Source: Rhodanobacter thiooxydans
Lineage (GTDB): Bacteria > Pseudomonadota > Gammaproteobacteria > Xanthomonadales > Rhodanobacteraceae
Direction of reading: 5' to 3'
Length of the DNA: 64,000 nt
NCBI RefSeq assembly: GCF_030291135.1
Contig: NZ_CP127409.1
Coordinates: forward strand, 2,790,001 to 2,854,000
The translations under genes were made by a program, and so were the position numbers. Positions 3,980 to 10,478 of the stretch are shown one piece after another. Every line of letters starts with the position of its first letter. Position 1 is the first letter of the stretch. The notes below the pieces were generated by a model. That model did no database searches, was not told the DNA's origin, and saw only the letters and a list, made by a program, of their open reading frames with translations.

Positions 3980-4645
3980 TCAAAGCTTCACGTCGAAGCT
4001 GGACTTGTCGGGCACGGCGCGCGCCGGCGAACCGACGTAGATCCGGCCCGGCTCGGTATCGCGTGTCACCAGCGCGCCGGAGCCGATCACGTTGTCGGGC
4101 GCCACCTTCACGTGGTCGTTGAAGGTAGTGTTCACGCCGACGAAGCTGCCGGCGCCGATCTCGCAGTAGCCCGACACGACCGCGTGCGAGGCGATGAACA
4201 CGTTGTCGTGCACGACCGTGCGGTGCCCCACGTGGTTGCCGCTCCACAGGATGCAGTTGTTGCCGATGCGCACGAAAGGCTGGATCACGTTGCCTTCGAA
4301 GATGAAGCTGTTCTCGCCCACTTCGGCATTGCGCCACACGAACGCACGCGTGCTGACATAGGTGGCGAACCGGTAGCCCCGGCGTTTCAGCTCCTGGTAA
4401 AGGCGCGTGCGCAGCCGGTTGAGTTGGCTGGCGGGGATCGCGACAAACACGTCCACCTCGCCCGGCGGGTAGTCCGCTTCGAGTGTTTCGAAGGCCACCA
4501 CGGGACGCCCTGCCAGCGTCGGCTGCACCAGGTAGTCGCGCTCGACACTGAAGGCCGCCACGTCGTAGTCGCTGTCGTGCTCGAAGTACTCGCAGGCGAT
4601 CTGCGCAAACTCGCCGGCGCCGATCAGGACTAGCGGCCTTGCCAT
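3980..4645 (-). CDS. fdtC: Sugar O/N-acetyltransferase with left-handed beta-helix (FdtC/QdtC-like)
   Basis: A 221-residue protein. The N-terminal part (1-90) is a nucleotide-sugar-binding type fold (PLVLIGAGEFAQIACEYF). The C-terminal part (100-215) shows hexapeptide repeats such as NAEVGENSFIFEGNVI, IGNNCILWSGNHVGH and VAPDNVIGSGALV. This matches acetyltransferases that add acetyl from acetyl-CoA to amino groups of dTDP-amino-6-deoxysugars. With fdtA and fdtB it would complete dTDP-3-acetamido-3,6-dideoxyhexose. The start is the Met of MARPLVLIG; the longer reading frame upstream only duplicates fdtA sequence in another frame. It overlaps fdtA by 16 bases. The regiochemistry is inferred from the operon. 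Confidence 0.85.
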   Translation of the reverse strand: MARPLVLIGAGEFAQIACEYFEHDSDYDVAAFSVERDYLVQPTLAGRPVVAFETLEADYPPGEVDVFVAIPASQLNRLRTRLYQELKRRGYRFATYVSTRAFVWRNAEVGENSFIFEGNVIQPFVRIGNNCILWSGNHVGHRTVVHDNVFIASHAVVSGYCEIGAGSFVGVNTTFNDHVKVAPDNVIGSGALVTRDTEPGRIYVGSPARAVPDKSSFDVKL

Positions 4646-5067
4646 GCCGTCGCCCCCTCCAGCTGCATGACGCCGCTCACCTCGCGCAGGAACTGGTCGT
4701 AGTCGGTGATGTAGTCGTCTGGATCGAACGGGTGGTCGGCCAGCACCATCAGCACGCAGTCGTCGCTGAAGTCGTAGAGCTCTCGCCACACCATGCTGCC
4801 GAGCAGCAGGCCCTGGGCGGGATCGTCGAGCACGATCTCCGCCACGCCGCTGCCGTCATCCAGCAGGAAAGTGACCGAGCCGCGCACCGCCACCGCCAGC
4901 TGGCTGAGATGGCGGTGCGCGTGCCGGCCGCGATGCACGCCGTTCTTCGTGGCGAAGATGTAGTACACGCGCCGGATCGCGAAGGGCACGTTGCCGTCCT
5001 GTTCCAGCGCGACGAGCATGCCGCGGCTGTCGCCATGTTTGTGCAACTGGATGCGTTGGATTTCCAT
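4630..5067 (-). CDS. fdtA: dTDP-4-keto-6-deoxy-D-glucose 3,4-ketoisomerase (FdtA/QdtA-like cupin)
   Basis: A 145-residue cupin starting MEIQRIQLHKHGDSRG, the size and opening pattern of the WxcM-like/FdtA family. The double-stranded beta-helix region contains the conserved HRGRHAHRHLSQL metal/active-site segment and the RGSVTFLLDDG strand pair. These enzymes convert dTDP-4-keto-6-deoxyglucose to a 3-keto isomer, the first committed step to Fuc3NAc or Qui3NAc. It is the first gene of a run of six overlapping minus-strand genes, so the operon promoter should lie just upstream between 5068 and 5353. The preceding RmlA/RmlB activities are not in this window. Confidence 0.9.
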   Translation of the reverse strand: MEIQRIQLHKHGDSRGMLVALEQDGNVPFAIRRVYYIFATKNGVHRGRHAHRHLSQLAVAVRGSVTFLLDDGSGVAEIVLDDPAQGLLLGSMVWRELYDFSDDCVLMVLADHPFDPDDYITDYDQFLREVSGVMQLEGATAWQGR

Positions 5068-5131
5068 GGGTCGGACCCGGCTGCAAATCATGGGATGGCG
5101 ACTTACAGGCTTGAGTGCCGCCCGACTGGAC

Positions 5132-5233
5132 AAAGGTTGCGCCGGGCAGCAGGCGGCGGATCGCCGGCGCCGCACGGCCTGCCCCCGGGTCAGGCGCAAT
5201 CGCCGGCGCGCCCAGGCGCCGCGCGCAACCTTT
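5132..5233. repeat. Long-range inverted repeat in the divergent intergenic region
   Basis: Between divergent fdtA and the cytochrome-porin gene (5068-5353) there is no gene. It holds a perfect 11-base inverted repeat (AAAGGTTGCGC at 5132-5142, its complement at 5223-5233) enclosing a very GC-rich insert in which a block containing ATCGCCGGCGC occurs twice. It could fold as a large stem-loop or mark an inserted element. No clear sigma-70 promoter was recognised in this stretch, although both flanking transcripts must start here. Confidence 0.5.
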
Positions 5234-5353
5234 GGTGGCCCGGCCGGCACTTACCCGCAGCCTGCAGCGGTCTGCCGGTACGGCCGGGGCAGCATCGCTG
5301 GCCGGCGCGTGGCCCGCGCATCGCCGCATCCGATCAGGACCCAAGGAGAACCC

Positions 5354-6709
5354 ATGTTGCCTTTTCCGACCCGATCCGAAACCGGCCGCCGCGGGAGCCT
5401 CCTGTGGCACGGCCTGGCGATCCTGCTGCTGTTCGCCAGCAACGCCGTCCATGCAGTTCCCTCGTTTGCCCGGCAGACCGGCTACGTCTGCGCGGTCTGC
5501 CACTCCAGCGCCTTTGGCGGCGGCGACAACGGGCCGGGGCTGACGCCGGTCGGCATGCGTTTCAAGCTCAACGGCTACACCGACGCGAACATCAGCGACG
5601 CGCTGCCGGTGGCCGCGCAACTCGTGGCGGCCCGCACCAACCCCGCGCGTGGCGACAGCAAGAGCCGACTGACCGAAGCCGACATCTACCTGGCCGGGCG
5701 ACTGACTGACCACGTGGGCAGCTTCGTCAAGATCGAGACCGACAACATCGGCAACGGCAAATACAACACCAGGCTGAGCAACCTCGATCTGCGCTTCGTG
5801 GCCAAGGCGCTCAAGCTGGGCGGCAAGGATCTGACGCTCGGCGTGAGCGTCAACAACAACCCGGGGTTCAACGACCCCCTCGCCGTGCTGCCAGCCGCTT
5901 CGACCCTGGGTCCACCCGGCGTCACCGGGACCCTGCTGAACCTGTCCAGCCCCGGCGCACCGGCCAACCGCGTCATCGGCGCCACGGTCTACGCCCTGTA
6001 CGACTCGGACTGGTACGGCGAAGTCGGCACCTACAACTCGTTGCAGACGTCCGTGCAGGATCGGCTGGGTTATTCGGTCGGGGGCGATCCGGGCAAGTTC
6101 AGCGACACCGGATACTTCCGCTTCGCCTACATGAAGGAGTTCAAGGCCCAGTTCGTCTCGGCCGGCGTGGTGGGTCTGACCACCCGGCGCCAGCGGCCCC
6201 GTCTGGGGCCCGCCGACGACATCACCGACCTGGGTTACGACCTCACCTACCAGTACCTGGGCAACCGGCAGAACATCCTGCAGCTCAGCTACGTGAACAT
6301 CTTCGAGAAGCGCGATTACGGCAGCACGCCTGCCAGTCCCATTGTTCCGGGCCTGCTCGCGCTGCCGCAGGGCTCAGCCCGCGACCAGATCGCCACCGCC
6401 ATCTACACCTTCAGGCAAAGCTACGGCATCGCGCTGTCCCGCATGGTCAGCACCGGGTCGCGCGACCCCGCCCGCTACATTCCCTACGGCAATCCCGATA
6501 CCACCAGCAACCTGATCAGCGTGTTCTGGGTACCGTTCGGCAAGACATCCTTCAACTCCCTGGCCAATCTGAGGATCTACGCCACCTGGTTCCGTTTCAG
6601 CCGCTTCAACGGCGCGCGCACCAACATCTTCGGCGCGCCGCCCGGGGCGCCGATGACCAACGCCAGGGACCTGAACGCCTTCACGATCTCCGTGAGCGCG
6701 GCATTCTGA
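5354..6709 (+). CDS. Cyc2-like fused monoheme cytochrome c and outer-membrane porin
   Basis: A 451-residue secreted protein: a signal peptide (about 1-34, hydrophobic core LAILLLFASNAVHA), then VPSFARQTGYVCAVCH with a single CxxCH heme site at residues 46-50, then about 390 residues of alternating beta strands ending in an aromatic residue (SVSAAF), as in outer-membrane barrels. The PSFARQTG-x2-CxxCH arrangement and total length match the Cyc2 family, in which a small cytochrome plugs a porin and carries electrons across the outer membrane, best known for Fe(II) oxidation. The start is supported by the AAGGAGA ribosome site at 5343. No partner cytochrome or oxidase is adjacent, so the electron donor is not indicated. 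Distant porin-cytochromes of unknown role share the same motif. Confidence 0.75.
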   Translation: MLPFPTRSETGRRGSLLWHGLAILLLFASNAVHAVPSFARQTGYVCAVCHSSAFGGGDNGPGLTPVGMRFKLNGYTDANISDALPVAAQLVAARTNPARGDSKSRLTEADIYLAGRLTDHVGSFVKIETDNIGNGKYNTRLSNLDLRFVAKALKLGGKDLTLGVSVNNNPGFNDPLAVLPAASTLGPPGVTGTLLNLSSPGAPANRVIGATVYALYDSDWYGEVGTYNSLQTSVQDRLGYSVGGDPGKFSDTGYFRFAYMKEFKAQFVSAGVVGLTTRRQRPRLGPADDITDLGYDLTYQYLGNRQNILQLSYVNIFEKRDYGSTPASPIVPGLLALPQGSARDQIATAIYTFRQSYGIALSRMVSTGSRDPARYIPYGNPDTTSNLISVFWVPFGKTSFNSLANLRIYATWFRFSRFNGARTNIFGAPPGAPMTNARDLNAFTISVSAAF

Positions 6710-7059: not shown

Positions 7060-7887
7060 ATGGCGGCACGTGGCCCACGCTGCGCAGGCATCGTGCCGCA
7101 CCGGGCCCGGCCCTTCCACCTCGACGTCGGCACCCGCGGCCGCTGCCTTGCCCGCATGGGGCTGGGGCTGCTTGCCGTGGCGATGGCCGCCGCGTATCCC
7201 GCCCGGCTGCACGCGCAGTCGACCAGGGTGGCCGGTACGGTCGCACTCGGTTCGCAGCTGGCCGACCGCGGCCTGGCGATCACGCCGGCCACGCCCACCC
7301 TTCAGGTGGCTGCCTCGTGGATCTCGTCGACAGGCTGGTCGGTGAGCCTGTCCGGAAGTGCCGAAGTCCGTACGCCGGGGCGCATCGTCCAGACCCTGCT
7401 CCAGGGGTCGCGCCACTGGTCGCTTTCCGGCGACTGGCAGATGCAGGCCAGCGTGCTCTACTACCGCTATTCCGGCGACGCCCGCTCGACCGCCTACGAC
7501 CGCGGCGAAGCCGGGATCAACTGGCTGTACCGGGACATCCTGACGTTCGGCCTGTCGGCCAGCCGCAGCATCGGCTCCGCGGATCGGCGCACGCGGGCCG
7601 CCGCCGATCTCGATTTCCACTGGCCGTTGACGGAACATGCCTTCGTTTCCGCCGGAGCGGGCGTCGCCCACGTCCCACCCGCGCGGTACAGCCACTACGG
7701 CCAATATGGGCATTACCGGCCCCACGATGGCGAAGGCTTCTACCGCTACGGCCACGTCGGGCTGATGTGGGTCGATGGCGCATGGCGGCTGGAACTCGAT
7801 CGCGTCATGACGGACCTGGGATCGCGATGGTCGACGCGGGACATGGCCGCGCAGCCCTGGGTCGCCACGCTCTCGCGGTCCTTCTGA
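7060..7887 (+). CDS. Putative outer-membrane beta-barrel protein (porin-like)
   Basis: About 275 residues. After a basic N-terminus there is a signal-peptide core (MGLGLLAVAMAAAYPARLHAQS) with probable cleavage after AQ. The remainder is strongly amphipathic and aromatic, for example WSVSLSGSAEVRTPG, WSLSGDWQMQASVLYY and LTFGLSASRSIGS, and ends in SLSRSF with a terminal Phe, the classic barrel-insertion signature. It recalls the TorF-type putative porins, but this is uncertain. The start at 7060 is preferred over the upstream ATG at 6889 because the sequence between looks random; 7156 is another possible start. It lies 73 bases before the ECF sigma gene on the same strand and may belong to the same regulatory module. 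Confidence 0.6.
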   Translation: MAARGPRCAGIVPHRARPFHLDVGTRGRCLARMGLGLLAVAMAAAYPARLHAQSTRVAGTVALGSQLADRGLAITPATPTLQVAASWISSTGWSVSLSGSAEVRTPGRIVQTLLQGSRHWSLSGDWQMQASVLYYRYSGDARSTAYDRGEAGINWLYRDILTFGLSASRSIGSADRRTRAAADLDFHWPLTEHAFVSAGAGVAHVPPARYSHYGQYGHYRPHDGEGFYRYGHVGLMWVDGAWRLELDRVMTDLGSRWSTRDMAAQPWVATLSRSF

Positions 7888-7960
7888 TCCACCGGCAACC
7901 TTTGCCGGCCGAAACGGTACTCACGCATGGACCGACCGCGTTCCGACCACCCACGAAGCC

Positions 7961-8545
7961 ATGAACGACGCTGATACCGACGCTGACGCCACCGATCGCA
8001 TGCTGCTCCAGCGCATGTCGATGGGCGACCGTACCGCGTTGGCGGTGCTCTACCGCGGCTACCACGGCAGGTTGTGCCGCTTCCTGTCCCGACTGACGCG
8101 GCGTCCCGACGTCATCGAGGAGGTCATCAACGACTGTTTCTGGATCGCCTGGCAGAAGGCGGACAATTTCCACGGCGACTCGCGCGTTTCCACCTGGATC
8201 ATGGGCATTGCCTACCGCTGCGGACTCAAGGCACTGCGCCAGCATGGCGACGAACCCGTCGCCGACGACGCGCTGGGGCAGGATCGCATCCCCGCCCACG
8301 ACCCGGGCGAAGACCGCGAACTGCGCGACTGGCTGAGCAAGGGTCTCGGCTGCCTGTCGGTGGACCAGCGGGTCGTGATCGAGCTGGTCTACGGCGTGGG
8401 GCATTCCCTGGATGACGTGGCCGCCATCATGCAATGCCCCGTGGGCACGGTGAAGGCGCGGCTGTTCCACGCGCGCGTGAAACTGCGTAACGTACTTCCC
8501 TCCCTGGCTGGAGACTCGCCGATACGCAAGGAGGGCGCGCCATGA
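7961..8545 (+). CDS. ECF-type RNA polymerase sigma factor
   Basis: A 194-residue sigma-70 family protein with sigma2 (about 25-95; GYHGRLCRFLSRL, EEVINDCFWIAWQKA) and sigma4 (about 140-185; DQRVVIELVYGVGHSLDDVA, CPVGTVKARLFHAR, the helix-turn-helix). It lacks sigma1.1 and sigma3, as expected for extracytoplasmic-function sigma factors. Its stop overlaps the start of the anti-sigma gene (ATGA), which strongly suggests a paired regulator. It would direct transcription of its own cluster and unknown targets when released. The promoter it recognises cannot be deduced from this window with confidence. Confidence 0.92.
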   Translation: MNDADTDADATDRMLLQRMSMGDRTALAVLYRGYHGRLCRFLSRLTRRPDVIEEVINDCFWIAWQKADNFHGDSRVSTWIMGIAYRCGLKALRQHGDEPVADDALGQDRIPAHDPGEDRELRDWLSKGLGCLSVDQRVVIELVYGVGHSLDDVAAIMQCPVGTVKARLFHARVKLRNVLPSLAGDSPIRKEGAP

Positions 8546-9177
8546 TGTTCCAGACGAGTTCCGGTCGCGACTGCGCCCGCGCCTGGGAAGCCATGCCCTG
8601 GGTGCTGCAGGGCAGTGCCCCGCGGGAGCAGGGCGAAGCGCTGATGGGCCACCTGGTGCACTGCGAAGCGTGCCGCGCCGAGTTTGCGCAGCAGAGCCGC
8701 CTGCAACTGGCGCTGTCGCTGCCCTCCGATATCCCTCTCGACGCCAACGTCGGGCTGAAACACTTGCTGGGCCGCCTCGACGCGCCGGCTCCGCTGGAGG
8801 CGCCGTTTCGTTCACGCACGGCAAGCCGGCTGACGCGCGCCCTGGCCGCCGTCGTGCTGATCCAGGCCATCGGCATCGGGGCATTGGGCACGAAGCTGTG
8901 GTCGGAAGGCGGTCGCCCGTACTACCGCACCCTCAGCGAGTCGCCCCGGCCGGCCACCCCGGGTTCGATCCGCGTCGTGCCTGATGCGGCCATGAAGCTG
9001 GCCGACTGGGACGCGCTGCTGCACGCCCTCGGCCTGCAGGTGGTGGATGGCCCCAACGACGTCGGCGCCTATACCGTCGTACCGCGAAGCACCACCACGA
9101 CGGAGCAGCAGGTGCTGCAGCAGTTGCGCGCCACTCACGGCATCCGCCTGGCGGAGCCCGTCGCCACCACGCCATGA
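8542..9177 (+). CDS. Membrane anti-sigma factor: zinc-finger plus protease-prodomain-like ectodomain
   Basis: A 211-residue protein in three parts. Residues 10-48 form an anti-sigma zinc finger (zf-HC2) with Cys11 and the Hx3Cx2C signature at His37, Cys41 and Cys44, facing the cytoplasm. Residues about 100-118 (ALAAVVLIQAIGIGALGTK) form one membrane segment. The remaining about 90 residues would be periplasmic. This ectodomain (IRVVPDAAMKLADWDALL, LGLQVVDGPNDVGAYTVV, LQQLRATHGIRLAEPV) has the beta-alpha-beta rhythm of subtilase prodomains and resembles residues 108-142 of the S8 protein encoded next. The gene overlaps both the sigma gene and the S8 gene by ATGA. It presumably holds the sigma factor inactive until a periplasmic event; involvement of the S8 protein is inference. 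Confidence 0.85.
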   Translation: MMFQTSSGRDCARAWEAMPWVLQGSAPREQGEALMGHLVHCEACRAEFAQQSRLQLALSLPSDIPLDANVGLKHLLGRLDAPAPLEAPFRSRTASRLTRALAAVVLIQAIGIGALGTKLWSEGGRPYYRTLSESPRPATPGSIRVVPDAAMKLADWDALLHALGLQVVDGPNDVGAYTVVPRSTTTTEQQVLQQLRATHGIRLAEPVATTP

Positions 9178-10478
9178 AGCATGGCGCCATCGTATTCGCT
9201 GCGGCGATGGCCCTGAGTGCCTGTGCGCACCTGCGGCCCGCAGCGCCGGCCGATGCCCCCGCCGAACCGCACCGTTCATCCGTGGCCAGCGCATCCGCCA
9301 TGGACAGCCAGCGCGACATCGTGCTGGCCGTCGCCAACCCGCTGGCCCCTCCCGCCACGCATGCCGGTTCCAGCGTGCTGGGCTATGTCCCGTCCGCAAA
9401 CTATGGAGTCGGCCAGCGGGCAGCATCGACGCTGGCGGCGCTGAAGAGAACCTACGGCTGGCAGGAGGTCACCGGCTGGCCGGTCAAGGCGCTCGACCTG
9501 TACTGCATCGTGCTGACGCCGGCCCCCGGCATGCCCCGCGCCGCCCTGCTCAAGGCACTTGCGGCAGACGCCCGGGTGCGGCTTGCCCAGCCACTGCAGG
9601 ATTATTCCGTTTACGCCGATCCACCACGGCAGGGTGCCCACCACTACAACGATCCCTATGCCGACTTGCAGCGCGGCTTCGTCGAAACCGATGCGGCACT
9701 CGCGCACAACTTCAGCCAGGGAGCCGAGGTCGATGTCGCGATCGTCGATACCGGCGCCGACCTGACCCACCCCGACCTGCGCGGACGCATTCGCGACACC
9801 ACCAACCTGGTCGACGCGGATCGCGCGGCGTTCGACCGCGACAATCATGGCACCGAGGTCGCCGGCGTCATCGCCGCCGACGCCAACAACCACCAGGGCA
9901 TCGTGGGGATGGCGCCCAAGGCCCGGCTCAGCATCTACAAGGCATGCTGGTATCCGCCCTCGCCCGGCGCCGGCGCCCGCTGCAACACCTTCACCCTGGC
10001 CAAGGCCCTGGCGGCGATCATCGACACCGATACCCGCATCATCAACCTGAGCCTGGGCGGCCCGGCCGATCCGCTGCTCGACCAGCTGCTTGCGCGGCTG
10101 CTGGAGCAGGGCCGCATCGTGATCACGGCCCTGCCGCCGGACGGCAACGCCGCCGGCTTTCCCGACAGTGCGCCGGGAGTCATCGTCGTGCGCAGCAGCA
10201 ACGCATCGAGAGCGCCGCCGGGGGTGCTGAGCGCACCCGGCAACGACATCCTGACCACCCAGCCGGGCGGCGGCTACGACTTCACCTCCGGGTCGTCCAT
10301 GGCCGCCGCGCACGTGAGCGGCATCGTCGCCCTGCTGCTCTCCATGGCGCCCGGGCTGGATGCGCGTTCGGTGCACGACTTGCTGCTGCAAAGCAGCCGG
10401 CTTTCCGACGGCACGCTGCAGGTGAACGCCGCGTCAGCCGTGGCGCGCCTGCGCAGCAAAGAGAAGGCCGCCCCCTGA
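9174..10478 (+). CDS. S8 (subtilisin-like) lipoprotein peptidase with altered oxyanion site
   Basis: A 434-residue subtilase. The N-terminus has a lipobox, LSAC, with Cys17 as the predicted lipid-modified residue. A prodomain-like region (about 105-145, LYCIVLTPAPGMPRAALLKA) precedes the catalytic domain. The triad is present: Asp192 in AIVDTGADLTHPDL, His225 in DNHGTEVAG, and Ser375 in TSGSSMAAAHVSG. The usual Pro before the last His of GTSMAxPH is Ala here. Where most subtilases read AAGN(D/E)G, this protein reads TALPPDG (318-324), so the oxyanion-hole Asn is missing. It may be a weak, specialised or non-catalytic member. Genes for the sigma and anti-sigma factors overlap immediately upstream, making it the likely third member of one signalling unit in the cell envelope. 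Confidence 0.88.
   Translation: MKHGAIVFAAAMALSACAHLRPAAPADAPAEPHRSSVASASAMDSQRDIVLAVANPLAPPATHAGSSVLGYVPSANYGVGQRAASTLAALKRTYGWQEVTGWPVKALDLYCIVLTPAPGMPRAALLKALAADARVRLAQPLQDYSVYADPPRQGAHHYNDPYADLQRGFVETDAALAHNFSQGAEVDVAIVDTGADLTHPDLRGRIRDTTNLVDADRAAFDRDNHGTEVAGVIAADANNHQGIVGMAPKARLSIYKACWYPPSPGAGARCNTFTLAKALAAIIDTDTRIINLSLGGPADPLLDQLLARLLEQGRIVITALPPDGNAAGFPDSAPGVIVVRSSNASRAPPGVLSAPGNDILTTQPGGGYDFTSGSSMAAAHVSGIVALLLSMAPGLDARSVHDLLLQSSRLSDGTLQVNAASAVARLRSKEKAAP

Follow-up and report, generated by a model that had tools for sequence, protein, structure and literature searches.

We found that an anti-sigma factor of Rhodanobacter thiooxydans ends in a predicted periplasmic domain that resembles the prodomains of subtilases, and that its gene adjoins a subtilase gene. 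The genes lie in a window of 64,000 nucleotides (contig NZ_CP127409.1, positions 2,790,001 to 2,854,000, of a 3.5 Mb genome on one contig). Here, positions 7961 to 10478 of the forward strand encode an extracytoplasmic function (ECF) sigma factor, the anti-sigma factor and an S8-family protease (subtilase); positions below are those of the window. As judged by sequence comparison, the association of such subtilase-prodomain-like anti-sigma ectodomains with proteases is real and conserved, and it appears to be undescribed in the open-licence literature. The first-pass annotation of this DNA had suggested that the ectodomain mimics the prodomain of the partner protease. We give an even chance to the proposal that the ectodomain acts as a membrane-tethered propeptide: by docking on the protease encoded with it, it would couple protease state to sigma release.

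Likeness of the ectodomain to subtilase prodomains

The anti-sigma factor (211 aa, 8542..9177, + strand) is an open reading frame with a zinc finger, one membrane segment and the ectodomain. The latter covers residues 140–211 (8959..9174, +; assigned by hhalign and the Pfam family Fervidolysin_NPro-like) and closes with Glu205 and a 6-residue C-terminal tail. A profile of 62 ectodomains aligned to prodomains taken from 23 S8 proteins that do not belong to sigma/anti-sigma/S8 cassettes (hhalign, 96.7% over 75 columns). The score of 53.3 was not approached in any of 300 shuffles (best 13.4; 0/300 as good), and controls gave 0.2% and 0.6%. The 23 prodomains were found with PF22148, which marked 27 stretches in S8 frames (4 removed by a distance filter) and had three matches outside recognised S8 frames. 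Comparison of 104 ectodomains with the prodomains of their own partners gave 87.4% (score 34.1, against at most 22.3 in 300 column shuffles and 7.5 on reversal), and control comparisons gave 0.4% for the anti-sigma N-terminal part and 0.3% for the S8 catalytic part. These 104 pairs form the branch of the window: the S8 proteins fall into two branches defined by Cys258 and Cys270, with 104 having both and 9 neither, and the oxyanion Asn column splits them in the same way. For the window's single pair, the likeness of ectodomain and own prodomain is modest (alignment score 36, shuffled mean 17, P-value 0.01). Chance as the source of the likeness is ruled out by the family profiles; by itself, this one pair would give weak grounds for doing so.

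Fervidolysin_NPro-like matches 18/62 ectodomains at E up to 0.1, and no other Pfam family is found in more than one. When 10 ectodomains were scanned singly at the curated cut-off of this family, L035, L036 and L038 passed, L168, L165 and L162 scored below it and four had no match. The window's ectodomain alone is also below the cut-off (15.9 versus 21 bits), and a scan of the window's own genome with the NPro model returned nothing above it. No match was obtained among 10 anti-sigma factors without the domain. From these comparisons we assign the ectodomain, over its full length, to the subtilase-prodomain superfamily (Pfam Fervidolysin_NPro-like / I9-like).

The earlier claim was that the end of the ectodomain aligns with the prodomain-like part of the S8 protein. 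The two strings that it named, GAYTVV and DLYCIV, are present, and the profile likeness is real and extends over the whole ectodomain; mimicry of the own partner is the part that turned out weak. Own ectodomain–prodomain pairs barely beat mixed pairs (mean rank 17.5 of 44 versus 21.5 expected; permutation P-value 0.025, relatedness uncontrolled). Moreover, the ectodomain scores higher against other S8 prodomains (96.5–96.7%) than against those of its partners, although a more varied profile may explain part of this difference. A copy of the own partner's prodomain, with own pairs only slightly above mixed ones, is rejected as stated. Comparisons across the two branches gave 2.9% for the Asn-type ectodomain versus the window-branch prodomain (EB-PA) and 2.4% for the window-branch ectodomain versus the Asn-type prodomain (EA-PB).

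The portion of PMC6993865 available to us describes propeptides in which a Glu acts as cap and the tail enters the groove of the active site; by the residue numbers given there, the capping Glu is followed by 8 residues in the PfSUB1 propeptide and by 7 in SUB1-ProM. Glu205 stands at the place of this helix-capping Glu in 102/104 window-branch ectodomains. It is followed by 5–6 residues in 89/104, and the last residue is Pro in 84/104. In the protease's own prodomain the same column holds Gln in 94 and Glu in 9 of the 104 proteins. The capping Glu and the short tail are at most suggestive of propeptide-like anatomy.

Association with S8 and C14 protease genes

Among 100 genomes (the window's own included), the anti-sigma search and the S8 search each matched 37, with 35 in common, and all 35 carry the full cassette with sigma, anti-sigma and S8 genes in order. 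The S8-only matches are a diverged full cassette in G063 and an S8 remnant with a stop in G024. In G074 and G090, which were matched by the anti-sigma search only, the match is N-terminal, and S8 and ectodomain matches were not found close by. A second S8 copy in G038 accompanies a truncated anti-sigma gene and no sigma gene. Scanning the genome collection with an S8 alignment confirmed at least 493 relatives. In the best 80 of these, a set biased to close relatives, 79 loci have a match to the ectodomain over 70 residues or more upstream of S8 (only 22 residues in L093), a sigma gene is present in 78, and the anti-sigma/S8 joint has a 4-base overlap in 76/80. The 80 loci share members with the 35 cassettes, and 113 of 128 sets are distinct. 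Clusters in which the protease is unchanged while an intact anti-sigma factor lacks the domain would contradict the proposed pairing; none was seen among the loci read, the nearest being L093 with its truncated anti-sigma factor and no sigma gene. The operon was found in Rhodanobacter, Dyella, Luteibacter, Xanthomonas, Lysobacter, Paracidovorax, Rhizobacter and others, and a plasmid search gave no match.

We surveyed 369 genomes of the class with a full-length anti-sigma profile and obtained 37 places in 31 genomes. Thirty-four loci were read (G000 and G058 were already sampled, and the contig-edge fragment G133:C113 was left out). The domain was recognised in 22 and not in 12 by a first model, and a broader model added L174 (E 3e-5). 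L169, L174 (whose contig ends 120 bases downstream) and L189 were excluded as contig ends; L332 is also at a contig edge. An S8 gene, as judged by our own S8 models, stands beside 16/21 evaluable loci with the domain versus 0/10 without it (Fisher test, P-value 6.8e-5). For 14 loci without the domain (11 from the class set and L040–L042), our own models, which are of limited sensitivity, gave no S8 or C14 match.

A survey of the phylum with the ectodomain alone as query matched 36/398 genomes at 39 places. We read 31 new regions; five other genomes were already known to have full cassettes. The loci are not independent, as 9 come from one genus and 6 from another. An S8 gene is close by in 27/31 new regions, which brings the count to 32/36 genomes. 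The order in these 27 regions is sigma/anti-sigma/S8 in 24, S8 first in two and divergent in one. The other four regions (L279, L281, L286, L295) have a gene of the caspase family C14 near the domain, directly downstream in L279 and L281 and past a sulfate-permease gene in L286 and L295. The C14 assignment in L281 comes from Pfam only (34.6 bits versus a cut-off of 21.4), a three-sequence C14 model having missed it. Thus, each of the 36 genomes has one of the two protease genes, S8 or C14, in the vicinity of the domain. L175, from the class set, is a fifth C14 locus. Of these five loci, L175, L279 and L286 have a recognised sigma gene, and none was recognised at L281 and L295; hence, the name anti-sigma factor follows there from the domain only. 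L286 and L295 each encode two ectodomain-bearing proteins, and the sulfate-permease gene lies between these and the C14 gene.

The expectation that the three genes and the domain occur together therefore holds far beyond the genus, but not everywhere: five loci have a caspase-family gene instead of S8, and four have no recognised S8 or C14 gene. Exclusive pairing of the ectodomain with S8 is not supported. One tentative generalisation, which we would sooner doubt than accept, in part because sigma genes were recognised at no more than three of the five C14 loci, is that these loci represent phylum-wide ECF switches built from a captured prodomain ectodomain and an exchangeable protease, usually S8 and in some lineages C14. 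If so, a single tethered domain would report on the state of two kinds of protease whose folds are unrelated.

The S8 protease and possible uses of the ectodomain

The S8 protein of the window (434 aa, 9174..10478, +; Pfam Peptidase_S8, 1.3e-34) has its own prodomain-like region at residues 46–148 (9309..9617, +; hhalign 92.8% versus other S8 prodomains) and a catalytic domain at 9666..10445 (+). Column alignment shows that D192, H225 and S375 are kept and that Pro322 occupies the position of the oxyanion Asn. Across 113 distinct cassettes, the catalytic Asp and His are present in 113/113 and the Ser in 112/113 (one gap); all three are present in 27/27 S8 proteins of the phylum set. The oxyanion Asn is found in 9 of the 113 cassettes, the other 104 having another residue (Pro in 84), and in 24/27 S8 proteins of the phylum set. 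An S8 enzyme without this Asn should be much slower, as is true of subtilisin mutants. The combination of a kept triad and a lost oxyanion Asn is unusual, and it would fit an enzyme that makes a slow regulatory cut or one that serves in binding. Cys111 (9504-9506, in the prodomain), Cys258 (9945-9947) and Cys270 (9981-9983) occur in 104/104 window-branch S8 proteins and in 0/9 Asn-carrying ones. PADLOC matched the S8 protein only, with one subtilase model and three IetS models.

These residues bear on two alternatives to propeptide docking. The S8 protein may be a dedicated site-1 protease that cuts the linker between the membrane and the ectodomain, the latter serving as a docking handle, with a site-2 protease completing release. 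Strict retention of the triad and of the oxyanion Asn in most of the phylum set would agree with this, and the replacement of S8 by a cysteine-protease gene at five loci suits cutting over propeptide docking. The absence of the Asn from the 104 proteins of the window branch points the other way, and an ectodomain tail that is short and, in most of these proteins, Pro-ended is unlikely to be the substrate. Alternatively, the window-branch S8 protein could be receptor-like and nearly inactive, binding the ectodomain and shielding the anti-sigma factor until envelope stress loosens the contact and other proteases cut. Replacement of the Asn, most often by Pro, is what such a receptor might show, and TonB-dependent transducers are described in the accessible part of PMC11637429 as protecting an anti-sigma factor from proteolysis when the signal is absent. 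Yet the invariance of Asp, His and Ser favours catalysis, and the Asn-carrying branch looks fully active by its residues, so that we consider the receptor improbable. Docking on the partner is in our judgement the most likely use of the ectodomain, with the chances for and against about equal; dedicated cleavage is the main rival, itself somewhat unlikely.

The anti-sigma factor has a predicted cytoplasmic zinc-finger domain at residues 1–85 (8542..8796, +; zf-HC2 in relatives) with the arrangement H37-x3-C41-x2-C44, and these three residues are invariant in 30 aligned proteins. The zf-HC2 family is listed for 30/30 aligned relatives (Pfam, E up to 1) and falls below the cut-off in the window protein (16.7 versus 22.2 bits), and the zinc-finger profile matches the RsiW and ChrR chains. 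The most hydrophobic stretch, residues 97–115 (8830..8886, +; hydropathy 1.93), is the putative membrane segment. The sequence RSRTASR precedes it, hence the C-terminus should be periplasmic. The zinc finger, the single membrane segment and the periplasmic domain of the first-pass annotation are all borne out in this way. With HxxxCxxC, an ECF sigma neighbour and a membrane anchor, the protein has the features of class I zinc-finger anti-sigma factors and is predicted to inhibit the sigma factor. The S8 protein was correctly taken for a predicted lipoprotein: its lipobox ends at C17, and 79/104 branch proteins have Cys at that column. Several relatives without this Cys, Xanthomonas included, have ordinary-looking signal peptides by eye; a lipid anchor thus seems common and not required. 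Signal sequence and topology together would place the S8 protein and the ectodomain both in the periplasm.

A number of observations weigh against docking of the ectodomain as a propeptide. Some concern the likeness itself. In the 9 Asn-type cassettes, the ectodomain has no detectable similarity to its own prodomain (EB-PB, 0.2%) and no Glu at the capping column (9/9). The second capping residue, expected to be Asp or Asn in Glu-x-Asp/Asn, is V, I, L, A or M and is not conserved. Searches of PDB sequences with the ectodomain and the prodomain yielded no propeptide; the ectodomain had its best hit at E 0.37 to ribosomal chains, and the own prodomain hit gp41 constructs (E 0.0014–0.0042) with no stretch passing singly. 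Given sigma distances, tree distances of the ectodomain correlate with those of the catalytic domain at 0.38, which does not exceed the 0.45 of the cytoplasmic part. Others concern the partner. Five loci pair the domain with C14 instead of S8, and we know of no use of such prodomains by the C14 fold. At L162, L165, L166 and L177, the domain comes with a sigma gene, neither an S8 nor a C14 gene was recognised up to about 5 kb away, and the capping Glu is present in all four. Three domain-bearing genomes (G189, G410, G669) lack any PF00082 match. We take these exceptions as genuine.

The four loci without a recognised protease nearby and the three genomes without PF00082, together with the lack of a specific coevolution signal in the tree distances, would suit a generic small fold for dimerisation or stability, with the protease neighbourhood reflecting shared regulation only. 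Such a fold is hard to reconcile with a superfamily match that is to subtilase prodomains and with the S8 or C14 neighbour that the domain has in every genome matched in the phylum survey, and we regard it as very unlikely.

The prodomain-like sequence, the operon, the phylum-wide association and the conserved promoter-like motif described below are computed. The fold, the docking, the direction of the signal, the cutting step and autoregulation are predicted from them. Under the docking proposal, the anti-sigma ectodomain would be a stand-alone subtilase propeptide tethered to the membrane. In the periplasm it would bind the S8 protein at the surface that is taken up by the protease's own prodomain, and the short tail at its C-terminus would reach into the active-site groove. 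Whether or not the protease occupies the ectodomain would then determine if the anti-sigma factor persists or is cut, with release of the sigma factor. The freed sigma factor may transcribe its own operon, and the amount of free protease would in this way be read and reset.

Regulated proteolysis in the RseA/DegS system likewise couples a periplasmic protease to an inner-membrane anti-sigma factor; it differs in having an HtrA-type protease and no propeptide-like ectodomain. Signal sensing by ECF systems is an open question for many sigma/anti-sigma groups. Pfam 31.0 is probably older than the Fervidolysin_NPro-like model. It was this release that was used in the anti-sigma survey PMC7406223, as stated in the part available. 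The class I (ASDI) factors RsiW and ChrR, as presented in that part, share the HxxxCxxC zinc finger and the ECF sigma neighbour with the window protein and have a different type of ectodomain. Stand-alone propeptide mimics of the MEROPS I9-like type (Pleurotus inhibitor, TgMIC5, SUB1-ProM), as far as PMC6993865 could be consulted, share a propeptide-like domain outside the precursor, a short C-terminal tail and, with the window's branch, Glu at the capping position. They are small eukaryotic proteins, whereas the domain here forms the periplasmic portion of an anti-sigma factor that is anchored in the membrane and whose gene shares an operon with that of the protease. ECF54 systems also have subtilase genes near the ECF sigma gene, and the accessible sections of PMC8999054 propose that no anti-sigma factor takes part in their action. 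The caspase systems of PMC8195603 recall some of the C14 loci in combining a caspase-domain gene with an ECF sigma gene; they are built on EACC2 and TRADD-N domains, and the portion available does not mention an anti-sigma or prodomain-like domain. Nor does the part of the Xanthomonas sigma-factor survey PMC6085468 at hand mention an S8-linked propeptide-like anti-sigma factor. We found no report of such a factor in the open-licence literature; earlier notice is possible.

A likely function is thereby put on an operon common to Rhodanobacter, Xanthomonas and other genera. The genes of its putative sensor and of the probable partner adjoin each other, and the kinship of the sensor points to a specific binding site, which makes the proposal testable with two purified proteins. 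If true, stand-alone propeptides would have a use in bacterial signalling as well; the ones that the accessible part of PMC6993865 names are eukaryotic inhibitors.

Operon layout, promoter motif and neighbouring genes

The operon begins with the ECF sigma factor gene (194 aa, 7961..8545, +; Pfam Sigma70_r2 1.6e-09, Sigma70_r4_2 1.5e-10). All three reading frames are on the + strand, and their coordinates agree with the overlaps given by the earlier annotation: the sigma/anti-sigma and anti-sigma/S8 frames each overlap by 4 bases, at ATGA. Over 35 cassettes (the window's included; start codons taken as those nearest the upstream stop) a 4-base overlap is found in 33/35 sigma/anti-sigma joints and 31/35 anti-sigma/S8 joints.

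A putative ECF-type promoter, GCAACCTTT-N12-GGTACTCAC, lies at 7895..7924 (+) and ends 36 bases before the sigma start codon. The form GCAACCTTT-N12-GGTACT(T/C)AC was seen by eye in 28 aligned close cassettes, with variants in some. Two further copies are present in the window, at 5225-5254 (+) and at 5111-5140 (-, one mismatch), the pattern having been widened after these were seen. Across 45 genomes of the genus we found 27 motif sites (up to 1 mismatch) in 20 genomes versus one for a backward control; by position, 18 read as cassette promoters and 9 lie elsewhere. We infer that the sigma factor may regulate its own operon and a small regulon.

The copy at 5225-5254 is upstream of the frame 5354-6709, which has a CxxCH motif, a signal sequence by eye and no Pfam match. 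The divergent copy at 5111-5140 is upstream of an FdtA gene (4630-5067; PF05523, 9e-47). In five other genomes of the genus (L218, L237, L238, L239, L233), a second motif copy precedes an HPr kinase-like gene, 25–28 kb from the cassette in four genomes and on another contig in G034. The L218 gene matches PF07475 at 28.0 bits, below the cut-off of 33.3, and the other four are similar by eye only. By eye, the neighbours of L162, L165 and L166 include dnaK-like and carA/carB-like genes, and L162 also has dnaJ- and dapB-like ones. In the window, the frame directly upstream of the cassette (7156-7884) has no Pfam match and an outer-membrane-barrel-like ...RSF end; its 3' end is kept beside the cassette, by eye, in most of the 28 aligned close relatives.

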